64,000 nucleotides of DNA, taken from contig NZ_WHVL01000003.1 of the NCBI RefSeq assembly GCF_020622355.1, positions 124,001-188,000 on the forward strand, written 5' to 3'. The position numbers and the translations under genes are program-made. Shown in pieces: positions 9,771 through 25,431 of this stretch. Origin of the DNA: Vreelandella malpeensis (lineage in GTDB: Bacteria; Pseudomonadota; Gammaproteobacteria; Pseudomonadales; Halomonadaceae). A model generated the notes under the pieces. It was not told the origin of the DNA, did not search any database, and saw only the letters and a program-made list of their open reading frames with translations. Numbering within the stretch: the first letter of the stretch is position 1; every line of letters begins with the position of its first letter.

Positions 9771-9907
9771 GGTCGTCGATCACCAGTAGGCAGTAGCATT
9801 CACAAAATGGCGGACGATCATAACGCTACCCGCTTCGCGCCGGGACGACTTTCTATTCCAATCGCAGTGCTGGCATAATCGCTGCCCCTTTGCCGAGGAG
9901 CGCGCCA

Positions 9908-10846
9908 ATGAACCGGGACACCGATGTCGAGCGAATAGCTGCCATTGCCATCGACGCCGCCCCGGCGCCGCCCCCTTCGCCAAGCGTGGCGCTCACGGCG
10001 GACGTTGCCGAAGGGCAAGCGCTGGAGCTCAAGCTCGACCATCTGCGCCAGACCCTGCGCGACATGGGCGATGTGGTGGTGGCGTTCTCTGGCGGCGTCG
10101 ATAGCACCTTTCTGCTCGCCGTGGCCCTGGAGACGCTGGGGCGCGAACGCGTGCTGGCCGTCATTGCCGATTCCGAATCCTACCCCTTCGAAGAGCTTGA
10201 TGCAGCGCGGGCGTTGGCCGAGCGTCTGAACGCCAGGCATCGCGTCATCGAAGTTTCCGAATTGGCCATTCCTGGCTACGCCGAGAACGATGCCAATCGC
10301 TGTTTCTACTGCAAATCGGGACTGTTCACGCATTTGGCGCCGGTCATGCGCGAGGCGGGCTTGAACAACATCGTGTTCGGTTTGATTGCCGACGACGATG
10401 GCGAGCACCGCCCTGGCACACTCGCCGCACGCCAGCACGGCGTACGCGGGCCGCTACACGAAGTCGGGCTCTACAAGGCCGAAATTCGAACACTCTCCCA
10501 GGCCATGGGCCTGCCCACCTGGAACAAGCCTTCGCTTGCTTGCCTCTCCTCGCGCATCGCCTACGGCGAAACCATTACGCTCGAAAAACTCGAACGCGTG
10601 GCCGAAGCCGAGCGCCGCGTGCGGGCGCTGGGGGTTGGGCAGGTGCGCGTACGCCACCACGGCGAGCTGGCACGTATCGAGCTCGACCCCGAGGAGATGG
10701 CGGTGGCGTTAGCACACCACCAGCGCCTGGTGGATGAGCTCACCGCCCTCGGCTTCGCCTGGGTGACCCTCGACCTTGCTGGCTATCGCAGCGGCAGTAT
10801 GAACCGCCTTCTCGCCCCCACCACTGGAGACGCGCCCAATGAGTGA
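9908..10846 (+). CDS. larE: ATP-dependent sacrificial sulfur transferase LarE
   Basis: A 312-residue PP-loop enzyme. LarE adenylylates the pyridinium dicarboxylate mononucleotide made by LarB and donates sulfur to form the dithio ligand of the nickel-pincer nucleotide. The PP-loop [11 protein letters not shown] lies at about residues 62-72. Cysteines that could carry sulfur occur in [10 protein letters not shown] and in SLACLSSR, the latter being the position of the sacrificial cysteine in the Lactiplantibacillus enzyme. An Ala/Pro-rich N-terminal extension of about 40 residues precedes the domain. ATG 9908 follows GAGGAG. The gene overlaps larB by 8 bases. It heads the larE-larB-larC operon and is divergent from a LysR gene. 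Confidence 0.92.
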
Positions 10847-11564
10847 ACGTCCACCGCTCGAGCCCATCGGCCATCTTGGGTTTGCCCAGGTCGACCACGC
10901 GCGCGAGGCGCGCAACGGTGTGCCCGAAGTGGTCTATGGCGAAGGCAAGAGCGCCGCTCAGATCGCCGCCATCGTGGCACGGCTGGTGGAACGCCACGCG
11001 CGCGCCCTGGTCACTCGCCTGAATGCCTCCAAGGCCGAAGAGGTCGCCCGCGAACAGCCGGGCGGCCACTACGATCCGCGTTCGCGGCTGATGTGGTGGG
11101 GCCGCGCGCCCGAAACGCTGAGAGGCACCGTGGCCGTGGTCTGTGCAGGCACCTCCGACCTGCCCGTGGCCGAGGAGGCCGCGCAAACGCTCGAATGGCT
11201 CGGCGCGCCTGTCGCCCGCTTGAGCGACGTCGGCGTGGCGGGCATTGATCGCTTGCTGGCACACCGCGAAGCGCTGGCACGCGCCGATGTGGTGATCGTC
11301 GTCGCCGGTATGGAGGGCGCGCTGCCCAGCGTGGTGACGGGCTTGGTGCGCAATCCGGTCATCGCAGTGCCAACGTCGATTGGCTATGGCGCGAGTTTGA
11401 ACGGCATTACCGCGTTACTGGGCATGCTATCGGGCTGCGCGACGGGCATGAGCGTGGTCAATATCGATAATGGTTTCGGTGCAGCGTGGCAGGCGGCGCG
11501 TATTCTAGCGCTGGTCGAGCGCGGCCCGGCCGAGCCCCCGGCCAGTTTCTCCCTCCCCACCTGA
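10839..11564 (+). CDS. larB: Pyridinium-3,5-biscarboxylic acid mononucleotide synthase LarB
   Basis: A 241-residue protein of the LarB/PurE-like family. LarB carboxylates and hydrolyses nicotinic acid adenine dinucleotide, the first step to the nickel-pincer nucleotide. The C-terminal half has the PurE-like core with [35 protein letters not shown] and a serine/glycine-rich [13 protein letters not shown] loop. The N-terminal part, [26 protein letters not shown], is also characteristic. Length matches the family. It overlaps larE by 8 bases and lies 12 bases before larC, so the three are co-transcribed. Assignment is secure. Confidence 0.93.
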
Positions 11565-11576
11565 CTGGATACGCCC

Positions 11577-12875
11577 GTGACGCCGACGCTTCATATCGAC
11601 TGCACCTTTGGCATTGCTGGCGACATGCTGCTCGCCGCGCTGGTAGACCTCGGCGCCGACCTCGACGCCATTGCCGTTGAGCTGCGCAAACTGCCGCTGG
11701 ACGACTTCTCGCTCTCCACTCAGAACGTGATGCGCTGCGCCATTCGCGCGCGGTTGCTCAACATCACGCTAGCACACGCGCTGGAACCCGCTCCCGAGGG
11801 TTTGGCGCAGTACCACACAACGCATGAGCACTCGCACACGCATTCACACAGCCACTCACACGATCATTCACACGGCCATGATCATTGGCACCCGCAGCGC
11901 CCGGCAGGCGAGATACTCGCCATGCTCGCCGCGTCCCATCTCCCCCCCCGTGTGAAGCAGCGCGCCACGGCCATCTTTAGTGCCATCGCCGAGGCCGAAG
12001 GCCGCATCCACGATCTGCCGCCGCAGGCAGTCCATCTGCACGAAGTGGGGGCGATGGACTCGATCATCGATATCATCGGTGTCTGCCTGGCGCTGGAAGC
12101 GTTGGATATCGCTACCATCACGGCAACGCCCGTGCCGGTCGGCCATGGCGTCGTTAGTATGGCCCACGGCAACTTCCCCATCCCCGCGCCGGCCACCCTG
12201 GAGCTGCTCAAGGGCATACCGCTCTCCTCTTTCAGTGCTCAGGGCGAGCTGACGACCCCAACGGGCGCGGCGCTGCTCAAGGTGCTGGTCGAGCGCTTCA
12301 CGCCGGCGCCGCAGGGCACACCGCTGGCCATTGGGTACGGCGCGGGCAACCGTGAGTTCGCCCACCCTAACGTGTTGCGCGCAGTGCGCCTGGCCCCGCC
12401 AGAAGAGGAAGATGCCGCTCGCGAGCACATCGCCATCCTGGAGTGCCAGCTCGACGACACCACCGGCGAGCAGCTCGGCTTTGCGTTAGAAACGCTGTTG
12501 GCGGAAGGTGCGCTGGACGTTTTTCATACGCCGATCAGTATGAAAAAGTCGCGCCCTGGCGTGCTGGTCAGCGTGCTCGCGACTCCCGAACGCGCCGATG
12601 CGCTCGAGCACTGTTTGCTGAAGACGCTGCCTACCTTCGGTGTGCGCCGCTCTGCGGCAAGCCGCCGTATCCTCGTGCGCCACTTCGAAGAGGTGACCAC
12701 CGAGCTTGGCACCGCTAACGTCAAGCTCGGCTATCTGAATGGCCACCTCGTCCGCGTGAGCGCCGAATACGAAGACGTCGCGCGTCTAGCGCGTGCCCAT
12801 GGGCGCAGCATCGACCAGGTGCAACGCCTGGTTCTCAACGCCTGGGAACAGACCCGCTCCACCCGCCAGCCCTGA
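11577..12875 (+). CDS. larC: Nickel insertion protein LarC (single-frame)
   Basis: A 432-residue LarC, the CTP-dependent nickel-inserting cyclometallase that completes the nickel-pincer nucleotide. The N-terminal LarC1-like domain starts HIDCTFGIAGDMLLAALVDLG. A His-rich linker follows at about residues 80-106, with alternating His and Ser/Asp/Gly encoded near 11815-11892, a likely nickel-holding segment. The C-terminal LarC2-like domain contains LECQLDDTTGEQLGF and MKKSRPGVLVSVL. Lactobacilli make LarC2 through a programmed frameshift, but here both parts are one uninterrupted frame. The start is GTG 11577, 12 bases after larB. It is the last gene of the lar operon, followed by 234 bases leading to the acid-sugar operon. 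Confidence 0.93.
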   Translation: MTPTLHIDCTFGIAGDMLLAALVDLGADLDAIAVELRKLPLDDFSLSTQNVMRCAIRARLLNITLAHALEPAPEGLAQYHTTHEHSHTHSHSHSHDHSHGHDHWHPQRPAGEILAMLAASHLPPRVKQRATAIFSAIAEAEGRIHDLPPQAVHLHEVGAMDSIIDIIGVCLALEALDIATITATPVPVGHGVVSMAHGNFPIPAPATLELLKGIPLSSFSAQGELTTPTGAALLKVLVERFTPAPQGTPLAIGYGAGNREFAHPNVLRAVRLAPPEEEDAAREHIAILECQLDDTTGEQLGFALETLLAEGALDVFHTPISMKKSRPGVLVSVLATPERADALEHCLLKTLPTFGVRRSAASRRILVRHFEEVTTELGTANVKLGYLNGHLVRVSAEYEDVARLARAHGRSIDQVQRLVLNAWEQTRSTRQP

Positions 12876-13109
12876 TACATCGCCCTTTCGCACTGCTGGA
12901 TTGATCGCTTTGATCACTTCGGTAGTGCCTTCCCGTGCGCGCTTTTCGCTTTCCACGCTTGGCTTCGCTCATGAGCCGACGGTTAGATGCGGTGAGTCCA
13001 CGTTTTTTGCTCACTAGACGATGGTATAGCTTGCTAAATATGCTCGATTCGATCATTTTAGTGCGCATACTCATCAAACCGATCATTCACCGCCTTTCTG
13101 GAGGCTCGC
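12876..13109. promoter_or_regulatory. Intergenic control region of the acid-sugar operon
   Basis: This 234-base gap separates larC from the DHDPS-like gene. It holds a tandem 9-bp motif, GATCGCTTT (12903-12911) directly followed by GATCACTTC (12912-12920). The same tandem layout occurs before tctB/deoR at 23038-23055. Nearer the gene, CGATCATT occurs twice, at 13050-13057 and 13080-13087, 30 bp apart. TGGAGG just before ATG 13110 is the ribosome-binding site. I infer an operator region for the DeoR-type regulator encoded at 23128. No clear terminator for larC is visible, so read-through from lar is possible. Confidence 0.5.
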
Positions 13110-14003
13110 ATGAGCAATTTCGAATTCCGTGGCATCGTACCCGCACTGATCACCCCCCTGGACGAGCATGAAGAGATCGACGAGCAGGGGCTGCGCGAGC
13201 TCACGGAAACACTGATCAAGAAAGGCGTGCATGGCCTCTTCGCCCTGGGCACCAACGGTGAATTCTTCTCGCTGACCGATGACGAGAAAGTGCGCGTGGC
13301 GACCATCGTCAAGGACCAGGCCGCTGGCCGCGTACCCGTTTATGCCGGTACCGGCGGTTACACCACGCGCGGCGTCATCGAGCTCAACCGTCGCATGGAA
13401 GAAGTGGGCGTCGACGGGCTTTCAATCATCACCCCCTACTTCAACGGCGCCACCCAAGCCGAGCTGATTCTGCACTACCAGCGCATCGCCGAAGCCACGC
13501 CGCTGCCGATTCTGCTCTACACCATCCCGGCCAAGGCCGGCGTGACCCTGACCATCGACAGCGTCGCCAAGCTCTCCGAAATCCCCAACATCCGCGCGAT
13601 CAAGGACAGCGGCGGCGACTTCGACCGTCTGGTCCAGCTGATTCGCCTGCGTCGTGACGACTTCGCCGTGTTCACCGGCACCGACTCGATGATCCTGTGG
13701 ACGCTGATGGCCGGCGGCGACGGCGCCGTTGCGGCGACCACCAACGCCGTACCGGACGTGGTCATGACCATCTGGAACGCCTGGCAGGCCGGTGACATGG
13801 AGACCGCCCGCGAAGCCCAGGAGAAGCTGCGCCCGCTGCGCAACGCCTTCGCCCTCGGCACCATGCCGAGCGTGCTGAAGACCGCTGCCACCCTGCTCGG
13901 CATGCCCGCAGGTCCCGCGCGCTCGCCGGTGCAAGCGCTCACCCCCGAGGCCCTTGAGAAGCTCAAGCAGGTGCTGAAGGTCTACGACCGTGTCGAGCGC
14001 TGA
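13110..14003 (+). CDS. DHDPS/NAL-superfamily lyase of the acid-sugar operon
   Basis: A 297-residue class I aldolase-type enzyme of the dihydrodipicolinate synthase/N-acetylneuraminate lyase superfamily. The Schiff-base lysine is Lys165 in IRAIKDSGG and the proton-relay tyrosine is Tyr137 in LLYTIPAKAG. The ALGTNGEFFSL motif is at 45-55. The strand before Lys165 carries YTIPAKAG rather than the YNVPGRTG of true DapA, so it is probably a catabolic member acting on a 2-keto acid, not lysine biosynthesis. It opens a five-gene operon and overlaps the kinase gene by 14 bases. Its role alongside the kinase/PdxA2 pair is not obvious: it may process a 2-keto-3-deoxy intermediate or a second substrate. 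Confidence 0.85.
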   Translation: MSNFEFRGIVPALITPLDEHEEIDEQGLRELTETLIKKGVHGLFALGTNGEFFSLTDDEKVRVATIVKDQAAGRVPVYAGTGGYTTRGVIELNRRMEEVGVDGLSIITPYFNGATQAELILHYQRIAEATPLPILLYTIPAKAGVTLTIDSVAKLSEIPNIRAIKDSGGDFDRLVQLIRLRRDDFAVFTGTDSMILWTLMAGGDGAVAATTNAVPDVVMTIWNAWQAGDMETAREAQEKLRPLRNAFALGTMPSVLKTAATLLGMPAGPARSPVQALTPEALEKLKQVLKVYDRVER

Positions 14004-15246
14004 GTCGCGCACCGTTCAACTGCTGATCGTCGCCGATGACCTGACCGGCACGGCGGATTCCGCCGTGGGCTGTACCCAGGCGGGTCTTGCGACCGCCGTG
14101 GTGCTCGGCGCCCAGGCCACCGAGTGCGCCGAGGCGGTGGCGCTGGATCTTGATTCGCGCGGCGTCAGCGCCGCCGAGGCCGCCGAGCGACACCGCCAGG
14201 CGCTCGCTGCCTGGCAGGGGCGCTTTCGCTGTCTGTTCAAGAAGGTGGATTCGACCCTGCGTGGCAACGTCGCCGCCGAGATCGCAAGCCTGGTGCCGCT
14301 TGCCGGCATGGCGATCGTCGCCCCGGCCTACCCGGCCACCGGGCGCACCACTCGGGGCGGCCGCCAGTACCTCGACGGCGTGCCCGTCGAGCAGACCGAA
14401 GTGTGGACCAACGAAGGCATCCAAGGCCGAGCGAACCTGGTCGAGATGCTCGAAGGCGCGGAACTCGCCTGCGCCCGGCTCGATCTCGCCATGCTCAGAA
14501 ACGATGCGGACCTGACGGCAACGCTTGCCGGCCATCGCGATCGTGGCATCCAGGCGCTGGTGTGCGACGCCGAAGATGAGGCAGATCTGGCGCGGCTGGC
14601 CGCCCGGAGCGCCGCTCTGTCAGGCGTCTTCTGGGTCGGGTCGGCGGGGCTCGGCAACCACCTGCCAAAAGCGCTCGGCCTCATTGGCCAAGGCGAGCGC
14701 CTGCGGTCTTTGATCGGCACACCCCATACCCTGATCGTCATCGGCAGCATGAGCGGCGTTTCCCACCGTCAGGCCGACCGCCTGCTGGAGAGTCCGCAAG
14801 CGCCGACGCTGATCGAGATCGATGCCAGCGCGCTGCGGGCGAGTGGCGACCTTCGCGAAATCGAGGCGTGCCTCGACGACGCCCTCGCCCGGCGCCAGAA
14901 CGTGATGGTACGCCTTCGCCAGGGCACAGATCGTAATGCCGCCGAGGGACCCTTGCTTGGTCAGGCGCTGGCCGCGCTTCTGGCGCCGCGCCTTGGCCGC
15001 GTCGAGCGGCTGATCGCCACCGGCGGCGCCACCGCCCGGGCGATTCTGGTTGAGGCCGGTATTGCCCGCCTTGCGCTCGTCGACGCCCCGGATACCGGCA
15101 TGGCGCGGCTGCTCGCCGCCACGCCCGCCGGGCCGCTCGAGGTGATCACCAAGGCTGGCGGATTCGGCGACGAGCACGCCTTTCAGCGGGTCTGGCAGGG
15201 CCAGCCCGACCCCAGTGATTCTTCTATCCATAAGGAATGTTCATGA
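13990..15246 (+). CDS. dtnK: DUF1537 four-carbon acid sugar kinase (DtnK-like)
   Basis: A 418-residue member of the four-carbon acid sugar kinase family (formerly DUF1537), which phosphorylates the terminal hydroxyl of threonate-, erythronate- or oxo-tetronate-type acids. The N-terminal substrate domain opens LLIVADDLTGTADSAVG and includes KKVDSTLRGN. The C-terminal ATP domain has ATGGATARAIL and TKAGGFGDEHAF. The start is GTG 13990 inside the end of the preceding gene. The stop overlaps the pdxA2 start in an ATGA junction. Direct coupling to a PdxA2-type dehydrogenase is the known arrangement of D-threonate/D-erythronate catabolism, giving dihydroxyacetone phosphate. The symbol rests on that context, and the true stereochemistry of the substrate is not determined. 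Confidence 0.82.
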   Translation: MSSAESRTVQLLIVADDLTGTADSAVGCTQAGLATAVVLGAQATECAEAVALDLDSRGVSAAEAAERHRQALAAWQGRFRCLFKKVDSTLRGNVAAEIASLVPLAGMAIVAPAYPATGRTTRGGRQYLDGVPVEQTEVWTNEGIQGRANLVEMLEGAELACARLDLAMLRNDADLTATLAGHRDRGIQALVCDAEDEADLARLAARSAALSGVFWVGSAGLGNHLPKALGLIGQGERLRSLIGTPHTLIVIGSMSGVSHRQADRLLESPQAPTLIEIDASALRASGDLREIEACLDDALARRQNVMVRLRQGTDRNAAEGPLLGQALAALLAPRLGRVERLIATGGATARAILVEAGIARLALVDAPDTGMARLLAATPAGPLEVITKAGGFGDEHAFQRVWQGQPDPSDSSIHKECS

Positions 15247-16250
15247 GCGACCGTCCCGTTATCGGTATTACCATGGGCGATGCCGCCGGCATCGGCCCTG
15301 AAGTCATCGTGCGGGCCCTGGCCCACGACGACGTCCACGATGTCTGCCGCCCGCTGGTCATCGGCGATGCGGGGCGCCTCAAGAAGGCCATGGACGTGGT
15401 CGGCTCGACGCTTTCGCTGCATGTGGTCGATACCCCCACCCAGGCACGTTTTCAGCGCGGCGTGATCGAGTGCATCGACCTGGGGCTGATTCCCGACGAC
15501 CTGCCTTGGGGCAAGGTCTCGAGCGTGGCGGGCGATGCCGCCTACCGCTACATCGCCAGGACCGTGGAGCTGATCGAAGCCGGCGAGCTCGACGCCATTT
15601 GCACCGCGCCGTTGAATAAGGAGGCGCTGCATGCCGGCGGTCACGTGTTCCCCGGCCATACGGAGCTTCTGGCGCATCTGACCGGCACCGAGGAAGTCTC
15701 GATGATGCTGGTGACCCCCAAGATGAAGGTCATCCACGTCACTACCCATGTGGGCATCATCGACGCCATCGCGCGGATCAACCCGGGGCTGGTGACGCGC
15801 ACCATCGAGCGCGCCCACGAGACACTGGCCCGGGCCGGCAACCACCACCCGCGCATCGCGGTGTGCGGCATCAACCCCCACGCCGGCGAGAACGGCCTGT
15901 TCGGCTACGGCGAAGAGGAAGAGAAGATCGTTCCCGCCATCGAGGCGCTGCGCGCCCGGGGCTGGGACGTCGAAGGGCCGCTACCGGCGGATACCCTGTT
16001 CTTCCGCGCCGGCCGAGGCGATTTCGACTGCGTCGTCGCCATGTACCACGACCAGGGCCACGGCCCGGTCAAGGTGATGGGCCTGGAAGCCGGCGTCAAC
16101 GTCACCGTGGGACTTCCGGTGGTGCGTACCTCGGTGGATCACGGCACCGCCTTCGACATCGCCGGCAAGGGCATCGCCGACGAGCGCAGCCTGATCGAGG
16201 CGTTGAGCCAAGCGGTTGAACTCGCCAGCCGGCGCACCGAGGCGGCCTGA
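15243..16250 (+). CDS. pdxA2: PdxA2-type 4-phospho-threonate/erythronate dehydrogenase
   Basis: A 335-residue PdxA-family dehydrogenase. PdxA2 paralogues oxidise 4-phospho-D-threonate or erythronate at C3 with NAD, and spontaneous decarboxylation yields dihydroxyacetone phosphate. The N-terminus GITMGDAAGIGPEV and the metal-binding histidines in FPGHTELLAHLTG, GINPHAGENG and YHDQGHGPVK are present. I chose the start ATGAGC at 15243, with AAGGA upstream, because it makes an ATGA overlap with dtnK. An in-frame ATG at 15237 is the alternative. The absence of other pyridoxine genes and the position after a DUF1537 kinase favour acid-sugar catabolism over vitamin B6 synthesis. Confidence 0.87.
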   Translation: MSDRPVIGITMGDAAGIGPEVIVRALAHDDVHDVCRPLVIGDAGRLKKAMDVVGSTLSLHVVDTPTQARFQRGVIECIDLGLIPDDLPWGKVSSVAGDAAYRYIARTVELIEAGELDAICTAPLNKEALHAGGHVFPGHTELLAHLTGTEEVSMMLVTPKMKVIHVTTHVGIIDAIARINPGLVTRTIERAHETLARAGNHHPRIAVCGINPHAGENGLFGYGEEEEKIVPAIEALRARGWDVEGPLPADTLFFRAGRGDFDCVVAMYHDQGHGPVKVMGLEAGVNVTVGLPVVRTSVDHGTAFDIAGKGIADERSLIEALSQAVELASRRTEAA

Positions 16251-16342
16251 GGCCGACCCGTCACGTCGCGACGTTTTTATCTCGTATCGGCGGGCAGGTA
16301 CTGCCAGGCGCCTGTCCGCCGCCGTTACATAAGGAGAGCATC

Positions 16343-17239
16343 ATGGAACGCATCGGTTTTATCGGACTTGGCTTGATGGGCGGCTACATGGCCTCCAACA
16401 TCCTCGCCGCGGGCTACCCGCTCAAGGCCTTCGATCCCAAGGCCGCAGCGGTCGAAGCGCTCATCGCCAAAGGTGCCAAGGGCGGTGAGAACGCCGCGGA
16501 ACTGGGTCGTGACTGCAGCATCGTGTTTCTCTGCGTGCCCACCTCCGAGCACGTCGAGCAGGTGATCGACGGCGACAACGGCCTGCGCGCCGGCGCCAAG
16601 GCGGCAGGCAACGCGCTGATCATCGTCGACTGCTCCACGTCCCAGCCCACCGTGACCCGGCGCCTGGCAGAGTCGCTTGCCGACGATGGCATCACGCTGG
16701 TCGACGCGGCCCTCGGCGGCACCCCGACCCAAGCCGAATCCGGCCAACTGCAGGCCATCGTCGGCAGCAGCGACGAGACGCTCGCGCGCCTGCGCCCGGT
16801 GCTCGAGGCCTGGGCGGGCAAGATTCTGCACTGCGGCGGTGTCGGCACCGGCCACACCATGAAGCTCTTGAACCAGTTTCTGGCCATGAGCTACGGCGCG
16901 GTGTTCTCCGAGGCGCTGACCATTGGTGCCAAGGCCGGCATCTCGCCCCAGGTGTTCGACAGCGTCATTCGCGGCTCGCGCATGGACAGCGGCTTCTACC
17001 AGACTTTCTTCCAGTACGTGCTCGAGCGCGACCGCAACGCCCACCGCTTCACTCTGGCCAACGCCGGCAAGGACATCCGCTACGTGGCGGCGCTGGCCGA
17101 CGCCCTGGACGTGAAGGCCGATGTCGCCCACGCGGTGAGCGATCTTTACGCCAGTGCCCTGGCCCAGGGCGACGGCGACAAGTTCGTGCCGGAGCTTTCC
17201 GATATCGTCGCCAGCCGCCATCAGCTCAGCCTGTTTTAA
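16343..17239 (+). CDS. NAD-binding 3-hydroxyisobutyrate-type dehydrogenase
   Basis: A 298-residue beta-hydroxyacid dehydrogenase. The Rossmann motif GFIGLGLMGG stands at the N-terminus, the substrate motif VDAALGGTPTQAESGQL replaces the usual DAPVSGG form, and the catalytic lysine is in TGHTMKLLNQ. Relatives oxidise L-threonate, 3-hydroxyisobutyrate or tartronate semialdehyde. An AAGGAG precedes the ATG. It lies 92 bases after pdxA2 in the same orientation and 9 bases before the next dehydrogenase. In this operon it may oxidise another stereoisomer of the four-carbon acid, like L-threonate dehydrogenase LtnD, but I see no residue that fixes the substrate. Confidence 0.84.
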   Translation: MERIGFIGLGLMGGYMASNILAAGYPLKAFDPKAAAVEALIAKGAKGGENAAELGRDCSIVFLCVPTSEHVEQVIDGDNGLRAGAKAAGNALIIVDCSTSQPTVTRRLAESLADDGITLVDAALGGTPTQAESGQLQAIVGSSDETLARLRPVLEAWAGKILHCGGVGTGHTMKLLNQFLAMSYGAVFSEALTIGAKAGISPQVFDSVIRGSRMDSGFYQTFFQYVLERDRNAHRFTLANAGKDIRYVAALADALDVKADVAHAVSDLYASALAQGDGDKFVPELSDIVASRHQLSLF

Positions 17240-17248
17240 GGAGTTCGC

Positions 17249-18193
17249 GTGAAGATCGTCTGTACTTCCCCGTCCTTCGCCAAGTACTCCCGCACGCCTT
17301 TCGATCTAATCGAGGCGGCGGGCGCCACCGTCGAGAGCCTGCCGGCGGACATCAGCGAGGCGGACTTCATCGCCCGCGCTGCCGATGCCGACGCCGCCAT
17401 CGTCGCCTTCAACCCCATGACCGAGGCCGTGTTCAGCGCCCTGCCCAACCTCAAGGTGGTGACCAAGCACGGTGTCGGCGTCGACAACATCGATCTTGCT
17501 GCCGCCGAGCGCCACGGCGTTCGCGTGACCAACGTACCGGCCGCCAACCGACACGCCGTTGCCGACTTCACCTTCGCCCTGCTGCTCTCGCTCGCCCGCG
17601 ACCTGCCGCGCGTCGATGCGGCTACCCGCGCCGGTGAGTGGCCGCGCTGCTTCGGTCGCGACGTTCACAGCATGACGCTGGGCATCGTCGGCATCGGCAG
17701 CATCGGCCAGGCAGTCGCCAAGCGCGCTGCGGGCTTCGAGATGCGCGTGATCGCTTATGATCCCTTCGCCAAACCCGAGGCGGTGGCGGCTCTCGGCGTG
17801 GAGCTGGTCGATCTCGAGACCCTGTGCCGGGAAGCGGACTTCGTCACCCTGCACGTTGGGCTCTCCGAGCAGACCCACCACCTGATCAACGCCGAGCGGC
17901 TGGCGATGATGAAACCGACGGCCATGCTGATCAACGCCGCTCGCGGTGGCATCGTCGATGAAAGCGCTCTGTTCGACGCGCTTGACGCCAAACGCCTGGC
18001 CGGTGCGGCCATCGATGCCTTCGAACAGGAGCCGCTGACCGAAAGCCCGCTCTACGCCCTGGACAACGTCATCGTCAGCGCCCATATCGCAGGCTACACC
18101 GAGAACGCGCTTACCACGCTCAGCACCACCTGCGTTGAAGACGTTCTCGCCGTTTTACGCGGCGATACTCCCAAGCATCCGGTCAAGGCCTAG
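17249..18193 (+). CDS. D-2-hydroxyacid dehydrogenase (phosphoglycerate dehydrogenase-like)
   Basis: A 314-residue D-isomer-specific 2-hydroxyacid dehydrogenase. It shows KHGVGVDNIDL, the NAD-binding GIVGIGSIGQAVAK, and the catalytic Arg in NAARGGIVDE, Glu in DAFEQEPL and His in SAHIAGYT. A GTG start at 17249 follows AAGGAG, nine bases after the preceding dehydrogenase. Members interconvert 2-keto and 2-hydroxy acids with NAD(P)H in the cytoplasm. As last gene of the operon it could reduce or oxidise a C2 position of the same acid that the LarA homologue is predicted to epimerise. The stop codon TAG is itself part of a GGCCTA tandem repeat. Confidence 0.87.
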   Translation: MKIVCTSPSFAKYSRTPFDLIEAAGATVESLPADISEADFIARAADADAAIVAFNPMTEAVFSALPNLKVVTKHGVGVDNIDLAAAERHGVRVTNVPAANRHAVADFTFALLLSLARDLPRVDAATRAGEWPRCFGRDVHSMTLGIVGIGSIGQAVAKRAAGFEMRVIAYDPFAKPEAVAALGVELVDLETLCREADFVTLHVGLSEQTHHLINAERLAMMKPTAMLINAARGGIVDESALFDALDAKRLAGAAIDAFEQEPLTESPLYALDNVIVSAHIAGYTENALTTLSTTCVEDVLAVLRGDTPKHPVKA

Positions 18194-18215
18194 GCCTAGG
18201 CCTAGGCCTAGGCCT
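18187..18215. repeat. Tandem GGCCTA hexamer repeat over a stop codon
   Basis: Four perfect GGCCTA units (18187-18210) plus a fifth partial GGCCT begin inside the last sense codons of the 2-hydroxyacid dehydrogenase gene. The first unit supplies its TAG stop. The units create overlapping CCTAGG palindromes, although CTAG is usually scarce in such genomes. Gain or loss of whole hexamers would not change the protein. The array looks like a slippage product. Confidence 0.9.
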
Positions 18216-18257
18216 GAACGATACTCGCCCTGTTCGCGGTGAGTAGTGCTTGAAACG

Positions 18258-18300
18258 ATACCGCCCCCGCCAGAGGCTCTGGCGGGGGCGGTATTTTATT
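18258..18300. terminator. Bidirectional rho-independent terminator
   Basis: A perfect 18-bp inverted repeat (18258-18275 with 18277-18294) centred on one G, extremely GC-rich inside, followed by TTTATT on the plus side. It lies between the convergent acid-sugar operon and larA-homologue operon and should terminate the plus operon strongly. The minus side has a shorter T-rich end. Confidence 0.9.
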
Positions 18301-18329
18301 CTCGAACGATAGCGTATTGCTCTTCCGCC

Positions 18330-19649
18330 CTAGTGCTCCGGCCAGTGATCGAGCAGCTGGCCCTCAGCGTCGAAGCGCATGGGGCGCGGCTCGTGGATCA
18401 CCTCGATACCAGGACGCTTACGCACCTCGGGTAAAAGCGCTTCGGAGACGTAGAGGTACTCCAGGTGCAGCGTATTGGGGATACGCATGATGCCGATGGC
18501 GTCAGGCGTATGGGACCCGCAGGTCTTCACGGCTGCCTGAAGGGTCGTGCGCTCGTCGGGCATCGCCAGCGGGATCGAGGCGGCGATCAGCACGCCCGAC
18601 GTGAGCGAGTTGGTATAGACCTTCTCGCGGTCGAAACGCTGGAAGAGGCGCTCGGTGATCACATCGGCACGCGCGACGCCGTTGGCGTTGCCCTCGCTCT
18701 TGTCGGTGACGTCGAGCACGGCGATGCGCGCGACGTCCGGGCCGCCGCTGATCGCGGTGGACGAGGGTCGGCCGGTGATGTTGGGGTCCATGCCGCTGCC
18801 CGAAAACTCCTTGCCTACGTAGTCGACGATCAGTACGTCCAAGGGCCCCGAGGCCAGCGGCGCATCAAGTGGGCCAAGCGGCAGGCGCGGCATGTTGCGC
18901 ATCGCCTGGCCTAAATAGACGCGCTCCTCCTCGACCATGGTTTCCGGGGGCAGGATCACCACCCGGGCCAGTTCGTCGTAGGCGTTCTCCAGGGTACCCA
19001 CGCCAAACAGCACGCGGCACTTTTTGAGCTTCATGCGCCCCATCTCGACGATGAAACGGCCAACGTAGTGGAAGCCCCAGGCGTGGCAGTTGTCTGCCCC
19101 TGACTGCTTGCCAAGCCCGATGGAGAGCATCTTGATCAGACCGCTTTCGTTGTCCGAGCGAAAGGCGCTGTGCGGCTTGATGCGGTTGAACAGCACGATG
19201 CCATCGGCTTCGAAGGCGAGCTTGTCGATCTGCACCGACATGCCGTTTTCGAGCACGCCGATCTCGACGGTTTCCATGCTCGAGCGAATCTCGCAGTCAA
19301 CGCTCTCTTCGGTGATGCCAAGGTGCGCCAACACGCTGATCTGCCCCTCGGCCGTCGCACCACCGTGGCTGCCCATGGAGGGGACGATGAAGGGCTTGGC
19401 GCCGCGTGCCTTGAGCTCGATGACGATGGCGCGCACCAGCTCCGGCAAGCTGGCGAGCCCGCGGCTGCCGACCGTAAGCGCCACCGACATGCCCGGCTCG
19501 ATACGCTCGCTCACGACCTTGGCCTGAGCAAAGGCTTTCTCTATCGCCGCGGCAGGATCAGTGGCCGGCTCGGTGTCGAAGTGCTGGCGTACGAGCGCCA
19601 TCGGTGGCAGCGCCACGCCCTCGACGAGCTTCGCGTAACTAGGTCTCAT
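18330..19649 (-). CDS. LarA-family nickel-pincer racemase/epimerase homologue
   Basis: A 439-residue LarA-superfamily (DUF2088-type) protein. LarA enzymes use the nickel-pincer nucleotide to racemise or epimerise 2-hydroxyacids. Likely cofactor residues are His95 in MGSHGGAT, His160 in IKPHSAF, Lys173 in SGLIKML (the covalent lysine) and His189 in NCHAWGF. The Lys-to-His gap is 16 residues, as for Lys184 and His200 of lactate racemase. The N-terminal DxTRP-type motif is instead GSRG with Arg63, and the His160-Lys173 distance is three residues longer than in LarA, so the substrate is probably not lactate. It lies 27 bases after tctA in one operon with the TTT transporter, near larEBC. C2 epimerisation of a tetronate is my inference. 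Confidence 0.8.
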   Translation of the reverse strand: MRPSYAKLVEGVALPPMALVRQHFDTEPATDPAAAIEKAFAQAKVVSERIEPGMSVALTVGSRGLASLPELVRAIVIELKARGAKPFIVPSMGSHGGATAEGQISVLAHLGITEESVDCEIRSSMETVEIGVLENGMSVQIDKLAFEADGIVLFNRIKPHSAFRSDNESGLIKMLSIGLGKQSGADNCHAWGFHYVGRFIVEMGRMKLKKCRVLFGVGTLENAYDELARVVILPPETMVEEERVYLGQAMRNMPRLPLGPLDAPLASGPLDVLIVDYVGKEFSGSGMDPNITGRPSSTAISGGPDVARIAVLDVTDKSEGNANGVARADVITERLFQRFDREKVYTNSLTSGVLIAASIPLAMPDERTTLQAAVKTCGSHTPDAIGIMRIPNTLHLEYLYVSEALLPEVRKRPGIEVIHEPRPMRFDAEGQLLDHWPEH

Positions 19650-19676
19650 AGCGTCACCTCGATAGCGGGCGAAGGA

Positions 19677-21188
19677 TCATACCTTCGCCGCTTGGCGCTG
19701 TTGTTTCCAGCTGCGCAGTGCAGGCAGCAGCAGAGAGAGCACCGCCAACCCCAGGAAGAATAGCGTGATGGGGCCAGAAAGGAATACACCGAGATCGTCG
19801 CGTGCGCTCATCAAGCCAAGACGCAGGTTGGACTCGGCCATCGGCCCGAGAATCAGCGCGATACACAGCGCCGCCTGGGAGAAACCGTACTTCTGCATGA
19901 AGTAGCCCAGCACGCCGAAGCCCACCATGGTGTAGAGATCGACCACGTTGAGGTTGATCGCCCAGGAGCCGACGAAGCAGAACACCACAATGGCCATGGT
20001 CAGCAGGCGCCGCGGCACCCGCAAAATCTGGGTGAAGAAGCGAATGCCCAAAAGGCCGAACACCAGCATGAAGATGGTGGCGACGAACACCCCCGTGAAG
20101 ATGCCGGTTACCACCTCCGGGTTCTGCTGGAACAGCATCGGACCCGGGGCCAGACCCTGAATCATCAGCCCGCCCATCAACACGGCGGTCACCACGTCCC
20201 CCGGAATGCCCAGGGCCAGCAGCGGAATCAGCGCCGCCGCGCACACGGCATTGTTGGCGCTTTCCGTGGCGGCAACCCCGGGCATGTGGCCGGTACCGAA
20301 TTTCTCGGGGGTTTTCGAGGTACGCCGTGCTTCGTTGTAGCTGATCCAGGCAGCGGTGCCCGAGCCCGTCCCCGGCACGATACCGATGAAGGTGCCGATC
20401 AAAGAGCCGCGCAGCATGGGCATGCCGCTCTCTTTCATCTCTTGGCGATTGGGCCAGATGCCGCCCACTTTCATACGCTCGACGCGGTCACTGAGGATCT
20501 TTTCGATCTGAACGAAGACTTCCGACAGCGCGAACAGACCGATCAGCGCAGGGGTAAAGGCAAATCCCGAGGCAAAGCCCGAAACGCCAAAGGTGTAGCG
20601 AGAAATACCGCTAATGGGATCGGCGCCAACGCAACCGATCAACACGCCGGCAAGCCCGGCGATGGCCCCTTTCAGAATGTCGCCGGAGAGGCTGGCGATG
20701 ATGGTCAGGCCGAAGACGGCCAGCGCAAAATACTCGGCCGGACCGAACTTGAGCGCCAGCGTCGCCAGCTGGGGCGCCAGCGCCGCCAGTACGATGGCCG
20801 CGAAGATCCCGCCCACGAAGGAGGCGATGGTCGCCATGCCCAGCGCCTTGCCCGCTTCGCCCCTCTGGGCCAGCGGATAGCCATCGAGCACCGTGGCCGC
20901 CGAGGAGGGCGTGCCGGGTGTACGCAGCAAGATAGCCGAGATACAGCCACCGTAAATGCCGCCGATATAGATGCCGATGAGCATGTTCAAGCCCATGACC
21001 GGCGCCATACCGAAGGTCAGGGGAATCAGCAGCGCCACCCCCATGGTGGCCGTCAGCCCCGGCAGGGCACCGATGATCATGCCCCCCAGCGTGCCTAGTG
21101 CGATGATCCAGAGAACACTGGGATCAAAGACTGCCAACACATACGATGAAATTTCCATAGCGACCTGCTCAATCAGATAAACAGCCAA
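19677..21188 (-). CDS. tctA: TctA large membrane subunit, tripartite tricarboxylate transporter
   Basis: A 503-residue inner-membrane protein with about 12 hydrophobic segments and TctA signatures: GALPGLTATMGVALLIPLTFG near the N-terminus, LLRTPGTPSSAATVLDGYPLA, and the second-half PGTGSGTAAWISYNEA plus ALGIPGDVVTAVLMGG. It forms the channel of a TTT-type secondary transporter that takes a carboxylate from the periplasmic binding protein TctC. It follows tctC on the minus strand, with a strong hairpin between them, and precedes the LarA homologue. Length is normal. The substrate is probably the hydroxy acid degraded by the adjacent operon. Confidence 0.93.
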   Translation of the reverse strand: MAVYLIEQVAMEISSYVLAVFDPSVLWIIALGTLGGMIIGALPGLTATMGVALLIPLTFGMAPVMGLNMLIGIYIGGIYGGCISAILLRTPGTPSSAATVLDGYPLAQRGEAGKALGMATIASFVGGIFAAIVLAALAPQLATLALKFGPAEYFALAVFGLTIIASLSGDILKGAIAGLAGVLIGCVGADPISGISRYTFGVSGFASGFAFTPALIGLFALSEVFVQIEKILSDRVERMKVGGIWPNRQEMKESGMPMLRGSLIGTFIGIVPGTGSGTAAWISYNEARRTSKTPEKFGTGHMPGVAATESANNAVCAAALIPLLALGIPGDVVTAVLMGGLMIQGLAPGPMLFQQNPEVVTGIFTGVFVATIFMLVFGLLGIRFFTQILRVPRRLLTMAIVVFCFVGSWAINLNVVDLYTMVGFGVLGYFMQKYGFSQAALCIALILGPMAESNLRLGLMSARDDLGVFLSGPITLFFLGLAVLSLLLPALRSWKQQRQAAKV

Positions 21189-21194
21189 AAACTA

Positions 21195-21222
21195 CTTGCC
21201 CCCCGACAAGGCGGGGGGCAAG
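21195..21222 (-). terminator. Intercistronic hairpin between tctC and tctA
   Basis: An 11-bp perfect stem, CTTGCCCCCCG at 21195-21205 with CGGGGGGCAAG at 21212-21222 and a 6-base loop. On the minus strand it follows the tctC stop and is trailed by TAGTTTTTGG. It may partially terminate or stabilise the upstream tctC message, raising binding protein over membrane subunit. Confidence 0.75.
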
Positions 21223-21234
21223 CCTGCTTCGGTC

Positions 21235-22206
21235 TTACTGGTTTACGCCGTACATACCCAGCTGACGAATGATCTCTTCAGCGGTGGCAGAGTCGCGCTC
21301 GGCCAGCTCGCGGAAGTCATCGGCCGAGCGGTAGTCGACGAACTCACCCATTTCTTCCATGCGGGCCAGGAACTCTTCGTCTTCGAAGGTTTGGCGCAGC
21401 GCTTCAGAGAGCGTCTCCTTGACGTCGTCCGGCAGGCCGACAGGCGCAATCACGCCCTTCCAGGAGGACCAAGTGAAGTCGATACCGAGCTCTTCCGGCA
21501 CCGGCGTATCGGGCAGCACGTCGATACGCTCGTCTTCCATCACCAGCAGCGCATTGATGCTGCCGGACTGGATCTGCGGCAGCACTTCGGCCGGAGAAGC
21601 AACGACGGCGTCGATGTGACCACCAACGCAGGCGGTTACCGCTGCCGATGCACCGCCGAAAGGCATGCTGTTGAAGTCGAGGTCAGCGGCGTTGCCGAAA
21701 CCTTCGATGGCGATGTGGTTGGCACCACCGGCACCGGAGTTACCGACACGGACTTCGCCCGGATGCTCACGGGTGTACTCGACGAAACCTTCGGCATCGT
21801 CGAAGGGTGCGCCCTGGCAGCCTGCAACGACCATCAGGTTACGCCCCATCAGCGCAATGAATTCGACGTCGTCGAGGCTATAGTCGACACCGCCGTAGTG
21901 AGGCAGCATGGCCAGCGGGCCCTGGGCACCCATGCCCAGGGTGTAACCATCGGCACGCGCATGCACCGCCGCGCTGGTACCGATCGAGCCGCCGCCGCCG
22001 GGCTGATTACGTACCACGAGCGATTTGCCCAGGTACTTCTTCAGCGTATCGGCCATGATGCGAGCCGATAGATCGGTGCCCCCACCGGCTGAGTAGGGCA
22101 CGACGATCTGTACCGGACGTACCGGGTAGTCGGCAGCAGCAGCGGTCGCAGCAGTGAACAGAACACCGCAACCAAGGGTGGCGAGAGTCGGGAGCAATTT
22201 TTGCAT
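21235..22206 (-). CDS. tctC: TctC-type periplasmic binding protein
   Basis: A 323-residue Bug/TctC receptor with an N-terminal signal peptide ending near residue 24 (ATAAAADYP). The mature part has the family motifs YPVRPVQIVVPYSAGGGTD, VVRNQPGGGGSIGT and GGHIDAVVASPAEVLP. It binds a carboxylate in the periplasm and delivers it to TctAB. It is placed between tctB and tctA with 88 bases to tctB. The two loops that contact carboxylates (around GGGTD and GGAS) are intact. Ligand is unknown. Context suggests a four-carbon or similar hydroxy acid. Confidence 0.92.
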   Translation of the reverse strand: MQKLLPTLATLGCGVLFTAATAAAADYPVRPVQIVVPYSAGGGTDLSARIMADTLKKYLGKSLVVRNQPGGGGSIGTSAAVHARADGYTLGMGAQGPLAMLPHYGGVDYSLDDVEFIALMGRNLMVVAGCQGAPFDDAEGFVEYTREHPGEVRVGNSGAGGANHIAIEGFGNAADLDFNSMPFGGASAAVTACVGGHIDAVVASPAEVLPQIQSGSINALLVMEDERIDVLPDTPVPEELGIDFTWSSWKGVIAPVGLPDDVKETLSEALRQTFEDEEFLARMEEMGEFVDYRSADDFRELAERDSATAEEIIRQLGMYGVNQ

Positions 22207-22294
22207 CAGCGTTCTCCAATAGGTTTTTAATGGTTATTGTCTATATGGACGGGCAGTCGCCCTTAATGAAGGGTGGCAAACGGCCCCACCCCGG

Positions 22295-22771
22295 TTACGG
22301 TAGATAGACGTCGAGCAGATACGTGAACCCGTAGTAGACGCAGGCCACGACCACAGCGGGAACGACTAGAACCTGCAGCACACGGCGCTCGCGCAGCAGC
22401 AGCATACCGATGACGAAGGTGGCAATCGTACTGGGCAGGTAACCAACACGCTCGAACGCAATGGCGTAGGCAATCATCAATACCACGAAGAGCACCAGCA
22501 CCACGGTGGCGTAGCGCACGCCCGAGCGTTGGGGAGCACGCTCCTCGTTGGCGGCGCTCACCTCGCTTACTGTGACTTCCGTACGCAAGCCGCGAATGAA
22601 CAGCGCCACGGAGAGCAGAGCAATGCCCACCACGGTGATCCACGGCAAGAAAGCCGGCCCTGCCTGGCTACCGGCGCCCGAGGAAGGCACCATGGTCGTG
22701 CGCCAGGCAGCGAAGGCGCAAAACGCCAGAAGTAAAAGGGCCAACCCACAATCGGTTCGTTTGAGTAACAT
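22295..22771 (-). CDS. tctB: TctB small membrane subunit
   Basis: A 158-residue membrane protein with four hydrophobic segments of the TctB family. The N-terminal half contains GSQAGPAFLPWITVVGIALLS, the usual PxxFP-like family feature, and the C-terminal half contains ERVGYLPSTIATFVIGMLLL. It is the poorly conserved small subunit of the TTT transporter. It heads the minus-strand operon tctB-tctC-tctA-larA homologue and is divergent from deoR. Family call rests on size, topology and position as well as these motifs. Confidence 0.85.
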   Translation of the reverse strand: MLLKRTDCGLALLLLAFCAFAAWRTTMVPSSGAGSQAGPAFLPWITVVGIALLSVALFIRGLRTEVTVSEVSAANEERAPQRSGVRYATVVLVLFVVLMIAYAIAFERVGYLPSTIATFVIGMLLLRERRVLQVLVVPAVVVACVYYGFTYLLDVYLP

Positions 22772-23127
22772 GTTGCTCTACCCTGTTGTCTAACTCGGTT
22801 ATCTAGCTGATCGGTACATGTTTGCGCGTGTCTGGCAGTCAGCCACCAGGCAACGACCAAACCAATCAAAAGCCTAAATCTTGAGTGACAAAATGATCTG
22901 TTCAATCCTTTTTGGCAATACGGCCTTGATCGAGCAGTGTCATACTGACAAAGCATGATTATTATAAATAACTGATATAAATGGACAATAATAGAAAAAA
23001 TATCGAAAGGGACTATACTAATGTCTAACACAAACATGATCACTTCGATCACAATTTGGGACTTTAGTGATGCATATAGCCTTTGCGGCTGCCATACTCA
23101 CCGCCAACGCCATCAGCCGAGTTCGCC
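22772..23127. promoter_or_regulatory. Divergent control region between tctB and deoR
   Basis: About 356 AT-rich bases without a convincing gene. At 23038-23046 and 23047-23055 lie GATCACTTC and GATCACAAT in tandem, matching the layout at 12903-12920. A TGATC core recurs near 22890. I infer that the DeoR protein binds here and controls both its own gene and the transporter operon. Confidence 0.5.
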
Positions 23128-23883
23128 ATGAAAGTCGTCAAACGCCGCAAGGCCATGCTTGAAGCCGTCCGTTCCGGAGTGTGCAGTATCGAAGCGCTGT
23201 GCCATCACTTCGGTATCTCTGAGGCGACCGTCAGGCGTGATCTTGGCGCACTGTCACGCGAGGGTGTTCTCGTGCGCACCTACGGCGGCGCCACCACCTC
23301 GATCGGCCAGCGCGAACCCGAGCTCAACCTCGAACAGCGCCGCGCCCGCCAAGGCGATATCAAAATTCGCCTGGCCGAGTGCGCGCTCGACTGCATCAAA
23401 GATGGCGATACCCTTTTATTGGATGGCGGCACCACTACCGCCGCCCTTGCCGCACGTTTGAACGAGCGCAAGGGACTACACGTCATTACCAACAACATGG
23501 CCGCGCTGCCGCTGCTCACTCAGCTTCCCGAAGGACGCACCACGGTACTCGGCGGCGACTTGCGCACGCCGAGCATGACGGTCTACGGCCCACTGGCCTA
23601 TGAAACGCTGTCGCGACTCACCGTCGACCGCGTCTTCGTCAGCGCCGACGGCGTCACCGAGCAGGGTCTGTGCGAGGCCAGCCCAGATCAGGCTTGGCTG
23701 AAGGAGGCGATGATCGCCCGGGGTGCCGAAGTCTACGTCATGGCCGATGCCACCAAAATCGGCCGCGCCAGCCAGCAGCACTGGACTCCTCTGCCCGCGC
23801 GCTGGACGCTGATCACCGATGCCGATGAAGAGCTCACCGGCATCTTTTCCCCGCGCAAGACGACGATTCTGCGTCCGCAGTAA
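23128..23883 (+). CDS. DeoR family transcriptional regulator
   Basis: A 251-residue DeoR-type regulator. The N-terminal winged helix has CSIEALCHHFGISEATVRRDLGAL and the following VRTYGGA turn. The C-terminal sugar-phosphate-sensing domain (DeoRC) has LLDGGTTTAALA, VITNNMAALPLL and DRVFVSADGV. Such proteins sense phosphorylated sugar intermediates, which fits control by the product of the acid-sugar kinase. I prefer ATG 23128. An upstream in-frame TTG at 23083 exists but lacks support. It is divergent from the tct operon. The tandem motif at 23038-23055 lies about 75 bases before its start and recurs before the kinase operon. Confidence 0.87.
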   Translation: MKVVKRRKAMLEAVRSGVCSIEALCHHFGISEATVRRDLGALSREGVLVRTYGGATTSIGQREPELNLEQRRARQGDIKIRLAECALDCIKDGDTLLLDGGTTTAALAARLNERKGLHVITNNMAALPLLTQLPEGRTTVLGGDLRTPSMTVYGPLAYETLSRLTVDRVFVSADGVTEQGLCEASPDQAWLKEAMIARGAEVYVMADATKIGRASQQHWTPLPARWTLITDADEELTGIFSPRKTTILRPQ

Positions 23884-25349: not shown

Positions 25350-25397
25350 GAATGCAGGCCTCCGGTTTTAGTTATCGTTTGGGAGTATTTTCCAGCA

Positions 25398-25425
25398 GGC
25401 GCCGGATCAAGAGTGATCCGGCGCC
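25398..25425 (-). repeat. Perfect inverted repeat between amidohydrolase and SSS genes
   Basis: A 12-bp perfect stem (25398-25409 with 25414-25425) and 4-base loop, GC-rich, lying just after the amidohydrolase stop on the minus strand. No T-run follows, so it may act as an mRNA-stability hairpin or weak attenuator rather than a full terminator. Confidence 0.6.
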
Positions 25426-25431
25426 GTGTTC

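Follow-up and report, generated by a model that had tools for sequence, protein, structure and literature searches.

The 3.6-Mb genome of Vreelandella malpeensis carries genes for the nickel-pincer nucleotide (NPN) cofactor close to a kinase and a dehydrogenase of acid-sugar catabolism, which raises the question of which enzyme uses the cofactor and what that enzyme adds to the pathway. All genes of the cluster are located within the 64-kb stretch of DNA analyzed here (the window). A first-pass annotation had placed larEBC, a LarA homolog, a tripartite tricarboxylate-type (TTT) transporter, a DUF1537 kinase and a PdxA2-type gene in this cluster, and profile models and open reading frames locate all of them about where it had put them. 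We find that an NPN-dependent isomerase probably feeds this acid-sugar pathway. That its substrate is a tetronate is a tentative assignment, and we are equally guarded about the complete proposal, namely an NPN-dependent C2-epimerase added on to the pathway, with D-erythronate to D-threonate as the most likely pair.

NPN synthesis genes and their candidate client

Three plus-strand genes are, by sequence, those of NPN synthesis, and their products all exceed curated NCBIfam cut-offs: larE (9890–10846 from a TTG or 9908–10846 from an ATG), for the predicted sulfur transferase (TIGR00268, 339.5 bits, cut-off 150); larB (10839–11564; NF033503, 285.5 bits, cut-off 175); and larC (11577–12875), predicted to insert nickel into NPN, with LarC1 and LarC2 in a single frame (TIGR00299, 210 bits, cut-off 90; NF052512, 137.4 bits, cut-off 50). 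Numbered from the ATG, LarE has a CxxC motif at residues 132–135 and a third cysteine at residue 212, and the CXXC-C pattern is assigned to the [4Fe-4S] type of LarE in passages of PMC9283937. LarE shows this [4Fe-4S]-type pattern, yet its NCBIfam name is sacrificial sulfur transferase.

The LarA homolog (LarAH; 18330–19649, minus strand), a predicted C2-epimerase, exceeds the cut-offs of Pfam Lar_N (34.6 vs 23.3) and of NCBIfam NF052515, "nickel pincer cofactor-dependent isomerase, group 22" (492.5 bits, cut-off 400). A genome-wide profile search found LarAH to be the sole Lar_N protein of its genome, and LarAH is therefore the only candidate NPN client found; a further LarA client in the same genome was considered and dropped in view of this single match. 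Against the lactate racemase model NF033504, LarAH gave no match at E ≤ 0.001.

The LarA family was split into 25 groups in 2020, with activity for members of eight, as counted from Table 1 of PMC7583248. Group 22 is absent from the 13 homologs assayed in that table. Nor is it named in the main text of either PMC11770544 or PMC12611868, although the numbering in PMC11770544 differs, so that a member may be among its enzymes.

Predicted fold and conserved residues of LarAH

A PDB sequence search with LarAH at E ≤ 1 returned one weak match, 2yjg (E 0.024; 0.77 with a 23-row profile). The AlphaFold2 model, built on 15 rows, has a mean pLDDT of 68.6, with a good N-terminal part and a largely poor C-terminal half. 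With Foldseek, the model gives 18 PDB matches at E ≤ 0.001; every one belongs to the LarA family, at 15–19% identity and with TM-scores of only 0.38–0.46.

Residue conservation was taken from an alignment of 23 LarAH homologs, and the correspondence to LarA was read from motifs and spacing. Arg63, His95, His160, Lys173, and His189 are invariant in all 23 rows and are read as Arg75, His108, His174, Lys184, and His200 of LarA; the spacing from Lys173 to His189 is 16, equal to that in LarA. Counterparts of the NPN-binding set (Arg75, Lys184, and His200) and of the catalytic His108 and His174 appear to be all present in LarAH. Profile–profile alignment with hhalign left the C-terminal pocket positions Trp358, Thr359, and Lys298 unplaced. 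In every row, small or polar residues occupy the two positions that follow His160 (S/T/A, then A/S/D/T), whereas lactate racemases carry Phe-Phe at the positions following the catalytic histidine (PMC11770544, section 6). With small residues in place of Phe-Phe and the failure of NF033504, the reading of LarAH as a plain lactate racemase was rejected.

Organization of the cluster

LarAH belongs to a single minus-strand run, tctB-tctC-tctA-larAH (22771–18330), in which larAH starts 27 bases past the end of tctA. The gene lies 5.5 kb from larC, and its run converges on the plus-strand run of the kinase and pdxA2 genes, an arrangement that the first-pass annotation had described correctly, at a distance of about 5 kb. 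Here tctA (19677–21188; PF01970, 525 bits) encodes the predicted large membrane subunit of the TTT transporter, tctC (21235–22206) its periplasmic binding protein, and tctB (22295–22771) its small membrane subunit; the latter two are open reading frames labeled from sequence and position, tctC without a Pfam run. On the plus strand, larE-larB-larC (9890–12875) are followed by a gap of 234 bases and then by a run from a dapA-like gene to a 2-hydroxyacid dehydrogenase gene (13110–18193), in which genes overlap or are 9 bases apart, except for 92 bases 3′ of pdxA2. The dapA-like gene overlaps that of the kinase.

The DUF1537-family acid-sugar kinase (13990–15246; PF07005 and PF17042) has the D-threonate kinase model as its top NCBIfam match, at 174.9 bits far under the cut-off of 450, and scores 91.3 bits (cut-off 350) against the 3-oxo-tetronate kinase model. 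The adjoining gene (15237–16250; PF04166) encodes a predicted decarboxylating 4-phospho-acid-sugar dehydrogenase that exceeds the cut-off of the pdxA model TIGR00557 (366, cut-off 290.35). It reaches 348.3 of the 583 required by the D-threonate-4-phosphate dehydrogenase equivalog, yet it is near the corresponding solved chains, with 309.6 and 302.6 bits to PdxA2 ("...dehydrogenase 2") and D-threonate 4-phosphate dehydrogenase. The remaining PdxA chains score at most 196 bits, apart from the top match, 4jqp (545 bits), which is named solely 4-hydroxythreonine-4-phosphate dehydrogenase. By likeness, the window protein would be of the PdxA2 type, and a second PdxA is located elsewhere in the genome.

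Three companion genes complete the plus-strand run. The first (13110–14003) encodes a DHDPS/DapA-family lyase or dehydratase (PF00701, 268 bits). Judged from its setting, we doubt that it is the lysine-pathway enzyme, and in relatives with and without lar genes it clusters with the kinase and pdxA2; against this doubt, the protein exceeds the cut-off of the dapA equivalog TIGR00674 (234 vs 206.15). The other two encode a HIBADH-like 3-hydroxyacid dehydrogenase/reductase (16343–17239; PF03446 and PF14833), which is under the cut-off of all NCBIfam models matched, and a PGDH-like D-2-hydroxyacid dehydrogenase (hadh2, 17249–18193; PF02826 and PF00389). The roles of the DapA-like protein and the two dehydrogenases are unexplained; other isomers or larger precursors may be their substrates. 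The DapA-family gene at 13110–14003 and the DeoR-type identity of the gene at 23083–23883 go beyond the first-pass annotation. No OtnI- or OtnC-like gene was seen in the window run.

Conservation of the gene set around LarAH

A search for related loci gave 15, with LarAH 73–98% identical to that of the window and Halomonas dongshanensis as the closest named relative (98%). We take these loci to comprise Halomonas, two Salinicola, eleven alphaproteobacterial records, and one metagenome-assembled genome labeled only Proteobacteria. Genes of relatives were taken from gene calls and tblastn; the gene caller missed some, chiefly in L037, a locus described below. A PdxA lies within 10 kb of LarAH in 12 of the 15 and a DUF1537 kinase in 9; in three more the kinase is on the LarAH contig at a distance of about 13 kb. 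The D-2-hydroxyacid dehydrogenase protein cluster is present at 13 loci and a tctC homolog at 12; one locus, L014, is a 5.4-kb contig. LarC was found in all 15 genomes, and LarAH is the sole Lar_N match in 8 of them.

Some of the DUF1537 kinases at these loci are short (363–374 aa as called), as at L006:4593–5684 and similarly in L005, L008, and L016. Their sugar-binding domain match ends about halfway (model positions 3–132 of 230 at most).

The gene order varies. L010, L011, and L013 share the order PdxA, Fe-alcohol dehydrogenase, DapA-like, 2-hydroxyacid dehydrogenase, LarAH, larC, larE, larB; in L006, L008, L009, and L016 the first four of these, from PdxA to the 2-hydroxyacid dehydrogenase, are oriented away from the others and are separated from them by Tct and GntR genes. 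At the nine alphaproteobacterial-type PdxA loci LarAH is 75–79% identical to that of the window, while PdxA, the DapA-like protein, the 2-hydroxyacid dehydrogenase, and the kinase are only 29–46% identical. L007 is an exception, with a PdxA 66% identical to that of the window and a TctA (79%) and TctC (68%) that are also closer. Since LarAH is far more alike across loci than its neighbors, the comparison suggests that one functional set was assembled separately and repeatedly around the same enzyme, rather than passed on as one inherited block.

Co-occurrence in Halomonadaceae

Among 201 Halomonadaceae genomes, larB is over cut-off in 19; a further 149 have sub-cut-off matches, which we read as PurE. 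Few genomes encode a group-22 protein, namely 8 of these 201 and 3 of 398 across the phylum, and all eight of the Halomonadaceae carry larB. Conversely, each of the 19 larB genomes has a Lar_N protein: 13 have canonical LarA and 8 group 22, two carrying both. A window-type PdxA2, taken as at least 78% identical (the next matches reach at most 49%), is present in 28 genomes. These include 15 of the 19 with larB and 13 of the 182 without it (Fisher p 7e-12; the value takes no account of relatedness, and the 78% limit was chosen once the hits were known). The first-pass annotation had singled out co-occurrence as a check on its proposal, to be refuted if the two operons were not conserved together; this refutation fails, since both this sample and the 15 relatives show the association, which is more than chance. 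The distance between larB and PdxA2 is 3.4–6.2 kb in 13 of the 15 genomes, and about 239 and 253 kb in the other two (G015 and G072). The four larB genomes that lack a window-type PdxA2 have a divergent group 22 (36–38% identical) beside lar, TRAP, IlvD-like, and HpcH-like genes.

With 13 of the 28 PdxA2 genomes lacking larB, the pathway does not depend on the epimerase, and the nickel module is optional for it. Eight of these 13 genomes were read, and all eight keep dapA-kinase-pdxA2-HIBADH-deoR (L037–L041 and L044–L046). One of them, G168 (L037), aligns to window positions 13013–18185 (dapA to the end of hadh2) with 79% DNA identity and to 19684–23878 (tctA to deoR) with 76%, skipping the LarAH stretch. 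No trace of LarAH or larE/B/C was found in L037 (best E 0.55), and the surveys of the 201 genomes found neither group 22 nor larB in G168. Transposase pieces (L037:6520–7489; HTH_21 and rve), IS3-like by our reading, occupy the place of LarAH in the otherwise syntenic cluster. LarAH and larEBC are absent together in L037, as would be expected if they formed a module supplying an already functional pathway with a second epimer. Either a loss or a later gain could account for the pattern.

A BNR_2 (sialidase-like) protein is encoded in or near several of the lar-less dapA-kinase-pdxA2-HIBADH-deoR clusters (L038:7271–8443, L040:11409–12581, and L041:17299–17973; Pfam was run on the L038 and L041 copies). 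Its presence in lar-less relatives hints at a larger precursor.

Canonical LarA beside the kinase and pdxA2 genes

Canonical LarA without group 22 is found in 11 of the 19 larB genomes, and the loci of seven were laid out by tblastn. In nine of the 11 genomes PdxA2 lies near larB; in all five that were read (L025, L027, L029, L047, and L048) one run holds a gene for a KdgT-like permease, canonical larA, larE, larB, larC, the kinase, pdxA2, HIBADH, and deoR. Of the seven loci, five thus combine canonical LarA and kinase-pdxA2-HIBADH-deoR in a single run. The exceptions are L026 and L028 (G072 and G015), where the run is kdgT-larA-larEBC-deoR and the kinase and pdxA2 are elsewhere (L042 and L043).

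LarA of L025, the sole canonical copy run against NCBIfam, exceeds the lactate-racemase cut-off (531 vs 460). Its pocket positions, as read from the alignment, are F, F, W, and Q, identical in the three rows aligned, and section 6 of PMC11770544 ties Gln at that position to the glycerate preference of LarAH43. We consider the lactate racemase label of this LarA (run L025:3418–13266; also L027, L029, L047, and L048) doubtful.

In Salinicola (L018 and L019) both LarA types stand within one continuous cluster, and the window cluster equals the Salinicola cluster minus canonical larA, kdgT, and an Nramp-like gene. This Nramp-like transporter gene lies between larC and dapA in Salinicola (L019:5115–6368) and is also present in lar-less clusters (L038:12687–13928), which makes a role in nickel import for NPN improbable.

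The wider group-22 family

Beyond the close relatives, the genomic setting of group 22 changes. A plasmid search gave 114 records, 12 of which were read. Homologs of Sulfitobacter and Pseudosulfitobacter (59–62% identical) stand beside a UxaA-type dehydratase, an L-arabinonate dehydratase, DHDPS, and larC; that of Paenibacillus (48%) is in the order uxaC-larAH-SDR-larE-larB-larC near zwf and gndA; and that of Marinovum (44%) adjoins a 2-keto-3-deoxy sugar-acid kinase and an aldolase. Seven haloarchaeal loci were read: in two, near-identical and on Haladaptatus plasmids, a LarAH (40%) is accompanied by PdxA and a "four-carbon acid sugar kinase"; three hold a DUF4147 gene, which is presumably glycerate-kinase-like, and two a mannonate dehydratase. 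Group 22 is also present in 11 of 385 genomes sampled evenly across the class to which the Bosea genome of L006 (G594) belongs. The 11 loci of the ten genomes other than G594 were scanned by tblastn at 55 bits or more, and one of these distant alphaproteobacterial loci, L054, has Tct and DapA-like neighbors.

In a tree of 37 rows (L014 and L032 excluded), the window falls in a 15-row clade with support 99/96, of which 13 rows have the kinase/PdxA context and whose sister is formed by the Sulfitobacter rows. Haladaptatus is placed elsewhere, and the kinase/PdxA label needs two changes on the tree. The idea that all of group 22 is a tetronate family was rejected, since contexts vary by clade. 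Group 22 looks like an acid-sugar isomerase family with clade-specific substrates, and the four-carbon assignment is limited to the clade of the window.

Proposed pathway and alternative explanations

In the pathway that we propose, TctABC would import the acid sugar, and LarE, LarB, and LarC would make NPN, which LarAH may bind through Lys173 and His189. LarA works by proton-coupled hydride transfer, two histidines serving as acid and base (PMC7583248, sections 5 and 8, and parts of PMC12611868). By analogy, we infer that LarAH would remove the C2 hydride of one epimer to NPN and hand it back on the opposite face, yielding the epimer accepted by the kinase. The DUF1537 kinase would then phosphorylate the terminal hydroxyl, and PdxA2 would oxidize C3 and decarboxylate the product to dihydroxyacetone phosphate. 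In their 2016 work on DUF1537, Zhang and colleagues reportedly found that the kinase and PdxA2 require a terminal CH2OH, a 3-hydroxyl, and a 1-carboxylate; with these demands, D-erythronate to D-threonate is the simplest fit and the most likely pair for the predicted epimerase. The idea of a nickel epimerase feeding a tetronate route, put forward in the first pass, thus keeps its frame, with NPN genes, a LarA client, an importer, and a co-conserved DUF1537/PdxA2 pair in place, but not the same certainty about tetronate as the substrate, given a kinase and a PdxA2 under their cut-offs and the pentonate- and hexonate-type genes of other clades.

Several observations weigh against the proposed pathway. 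The kinase (174.9 vs 450) and PdxA2 (348.3 vs 583) fall short of the D-threonate equivalog cut-offs, and a pure tetronate route leaves the DapA-like protein unexplained. Five of the seven haloarchaeal loci are devoid of kinase and PdxA genes, and an annotated lar gene appears in none of the seven stretches. One rival scheme, which we regard as unlikely overall, has LarAH epimerize a larger sugar acid (a pentonate, hexonate, or aldarate); the next steps would fall to the 2-hydroxyacid dehydrogenase and the DapA-like lyase, leaving the kinase and PdxA2 to work on a four-carbon fragment or a separate substrate. In favor of this scheme, the dapA and hadh2 genes stand directly before LarAH in L010, L011, and L013. 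The three Sulfitobacter/Pseudosulfitobacter loci read combine their UxaA-type and L-arabinonate-type dehydratases and DHDPS with a 2-hydroxyacid dehydrogenase in two cases and show no kinase or PdxA; the uxaC setting in Paenibacillus seems mannonate- or gluconate-like, and the four Halomonadaceae homologs of 36–38% identity come with IlvD- and HpcH-type genes. However, no sugar-acid dehydratase gene was seen in the window cluster, where the kinase and PdxA2 form the sole complete recognizable route, and the well-supported clade of the window is split from the Sulfitobacter rows. It is quite improbable that LarAH racemizes glycerate, lactate, or another simple hydroxyacid to salvage the wrong enantiomer. 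The DUF4147 genes adjoining three of the seven haloarchaeal group-22 loci would suit such a role, but PdxA chemistry needs a substrate of at least four carbons, and the residues after His160 are small or polar rather than Phe-Phe. Racemization of glycerate is nonetheless described as efficient for other LarA homologs in parts of PMC11770544.

The active site itself offers a further objection. The catalytic Asp72 of LarA has no Asp equivalent in LarAH, where residue 60 is Val or Ala and residue 62 is Ser in all 23 rows, and Lys298 was not placed: Lys280 and Arg294 are both invariant, and hhalign favors neither. With part of the LarA catalytic set gone, group 22 might bind NPN and perform some other hydride chemistry, an option raised for groups without His174 or Lys298 in section 8 of PMC7583248. 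Both catalytic histidines and the three NPN-binding residues are invariant in LarAH, however, and we consider such other chemistry very improbable. Finally, the neighborhood could be fortuitous, with larEBC and LarAH serving an unrelated reaction. Two of the close relatives (L012 and L015) lack the PdxA and kinase context, and the 11 distant alphaproteobacterial loci (10 genomes, 36–44% identical) showed neither a kinase or PdxA gene nor any lar gene over the length scanned, three of them being contigs of 4.8–11 kb. Because the association recurs in Halomonadaceae, Alphaproteobacteria, and Haladaptatus, and again with the second LarA type, we judge chance to be very improbable, the least likely of these explanations.

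Returning to the C2-epimerase pathway, we also advance, a shade more hesitantly than the tetronate assignment itself, that a dedicated nickel-dependent tetronate C2-epimerase exists and that nickel-pincer epimerases were joined to the DUF1537–PdxA2 pathway more than once. Such joinings would involve group 22 in Halomonadaceae/Alphaproteobacteria and in Haladaptatus, and lactate-racemase-type LarA in other Halomonadaceae. The cluster gives a concrete, testable substrate class for group 22, with natural controls at hand in relatives that have the pathway but not the nickel module; a second type of LarA also occupies this operon context. If the proposal is correct, a nickel-based shortcut has been added to four-carbon acid-sugar catabolism, and some halophile proteins labeled "lactate racemase" are acid-sugar enzymes.

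Regulator and flanking genes

A DeoR-family regulator gene (23083–23883, plus strand; DeoRC 128 bits, HTH_DeoR 56.7 bits) is divergent from tctB and is present in lar-type and lar-less clusters of relatives; tctB is retained between deoR and tctC in L017, L018, L019, and L037. Palindromes resembling TGATC-N5-GATCA group in two intergenic stretches of the cluster (12902–12916, 13041–13055, 13071–13085, and 23037–23051). Exact matches are those upstream of dapA (12902–12916) and between tctB and deoR (23037–23051). With at most one mismatch, the window has 13 sites against 2.0 expected, and exact sites number 59 genome-wide. The motif was found post hoc and is a candidate operator of the DeoR protein.

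Two apparently separate uptake sets flank the cluster: an M20 peptidase-like gene (assigned by eye) with an AbgT transporter at 6000–8873, and a sodium:solute symporter with an amidohydrolase at 23961–26730.

Comparison with known systems

LarAH shares with the NPN-dependent racemases and epimerases (lactate, malate, and 2-hydroxyglutarate racemases, and D-gluconate 2-epimerase) the LarEBC genes, the LarA fold, the two catalytic histidines, and the NPN-binding Arg/Lys/His. It differs from them in belonging to group 22, for which we found no reported activity, in its identity of only 15–19% to the solved members matched by fold, in the lack of an Asp72 equivalent, and in its small loop residues. 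The first-pass annotation had called a nickel-dependent tetronate epimerase undescribed. For threonate and erythronate themselves, no title or abstract among the matches listed concerns a nickel-dependent epimerase, nor does any link LarA with DUF1537, and a term search of PMC11796402 gave no match; supplementary Table S1 of PMC7583248, on group neighbors, may already note the neighbors described here. The word undescribed needs qualifying in that parts of PMC11770544 report slow C2-epimerization of 4-deoxy-threonate/4-deoxy-erythronate, which involves the same bond, chain length, and cofactor. That activity belongs to lactate- and hydrophobic-acid-type racemases, on a deoxy analog and with no dedicated pathway.

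The closest catabolic parallels are two routes for four-carbon acid sugars. The D-threonate pathway DtnK–PdxA2, reportedly described by Zhang and colleagues in PNAS in 2016, shares with the window an operon of a DUF1537 kinase and PdxA2 with a transporter and a regulator. The window adds the predicted nickel epimerase and its cofactor genes as well as the DapA-like, HIBADH-like, and 2-hydroxyacid dehydrogenase genes, and its kinase and PdxA2 are below the model cut-offs. L-threonate and D-erythronate are degraded by LtnD/DenD-OtnI-OtnK-OtnC, which likewise leads from a four-carbon acid sugar to dihydroxyacetone phosphate and uses a HIBADH-family dehydrogenase. In the window, epimerization would replace the oxidize–isomerize detour of that pathway for D-erythronate, and one kinase route could consume both C2 epimers.

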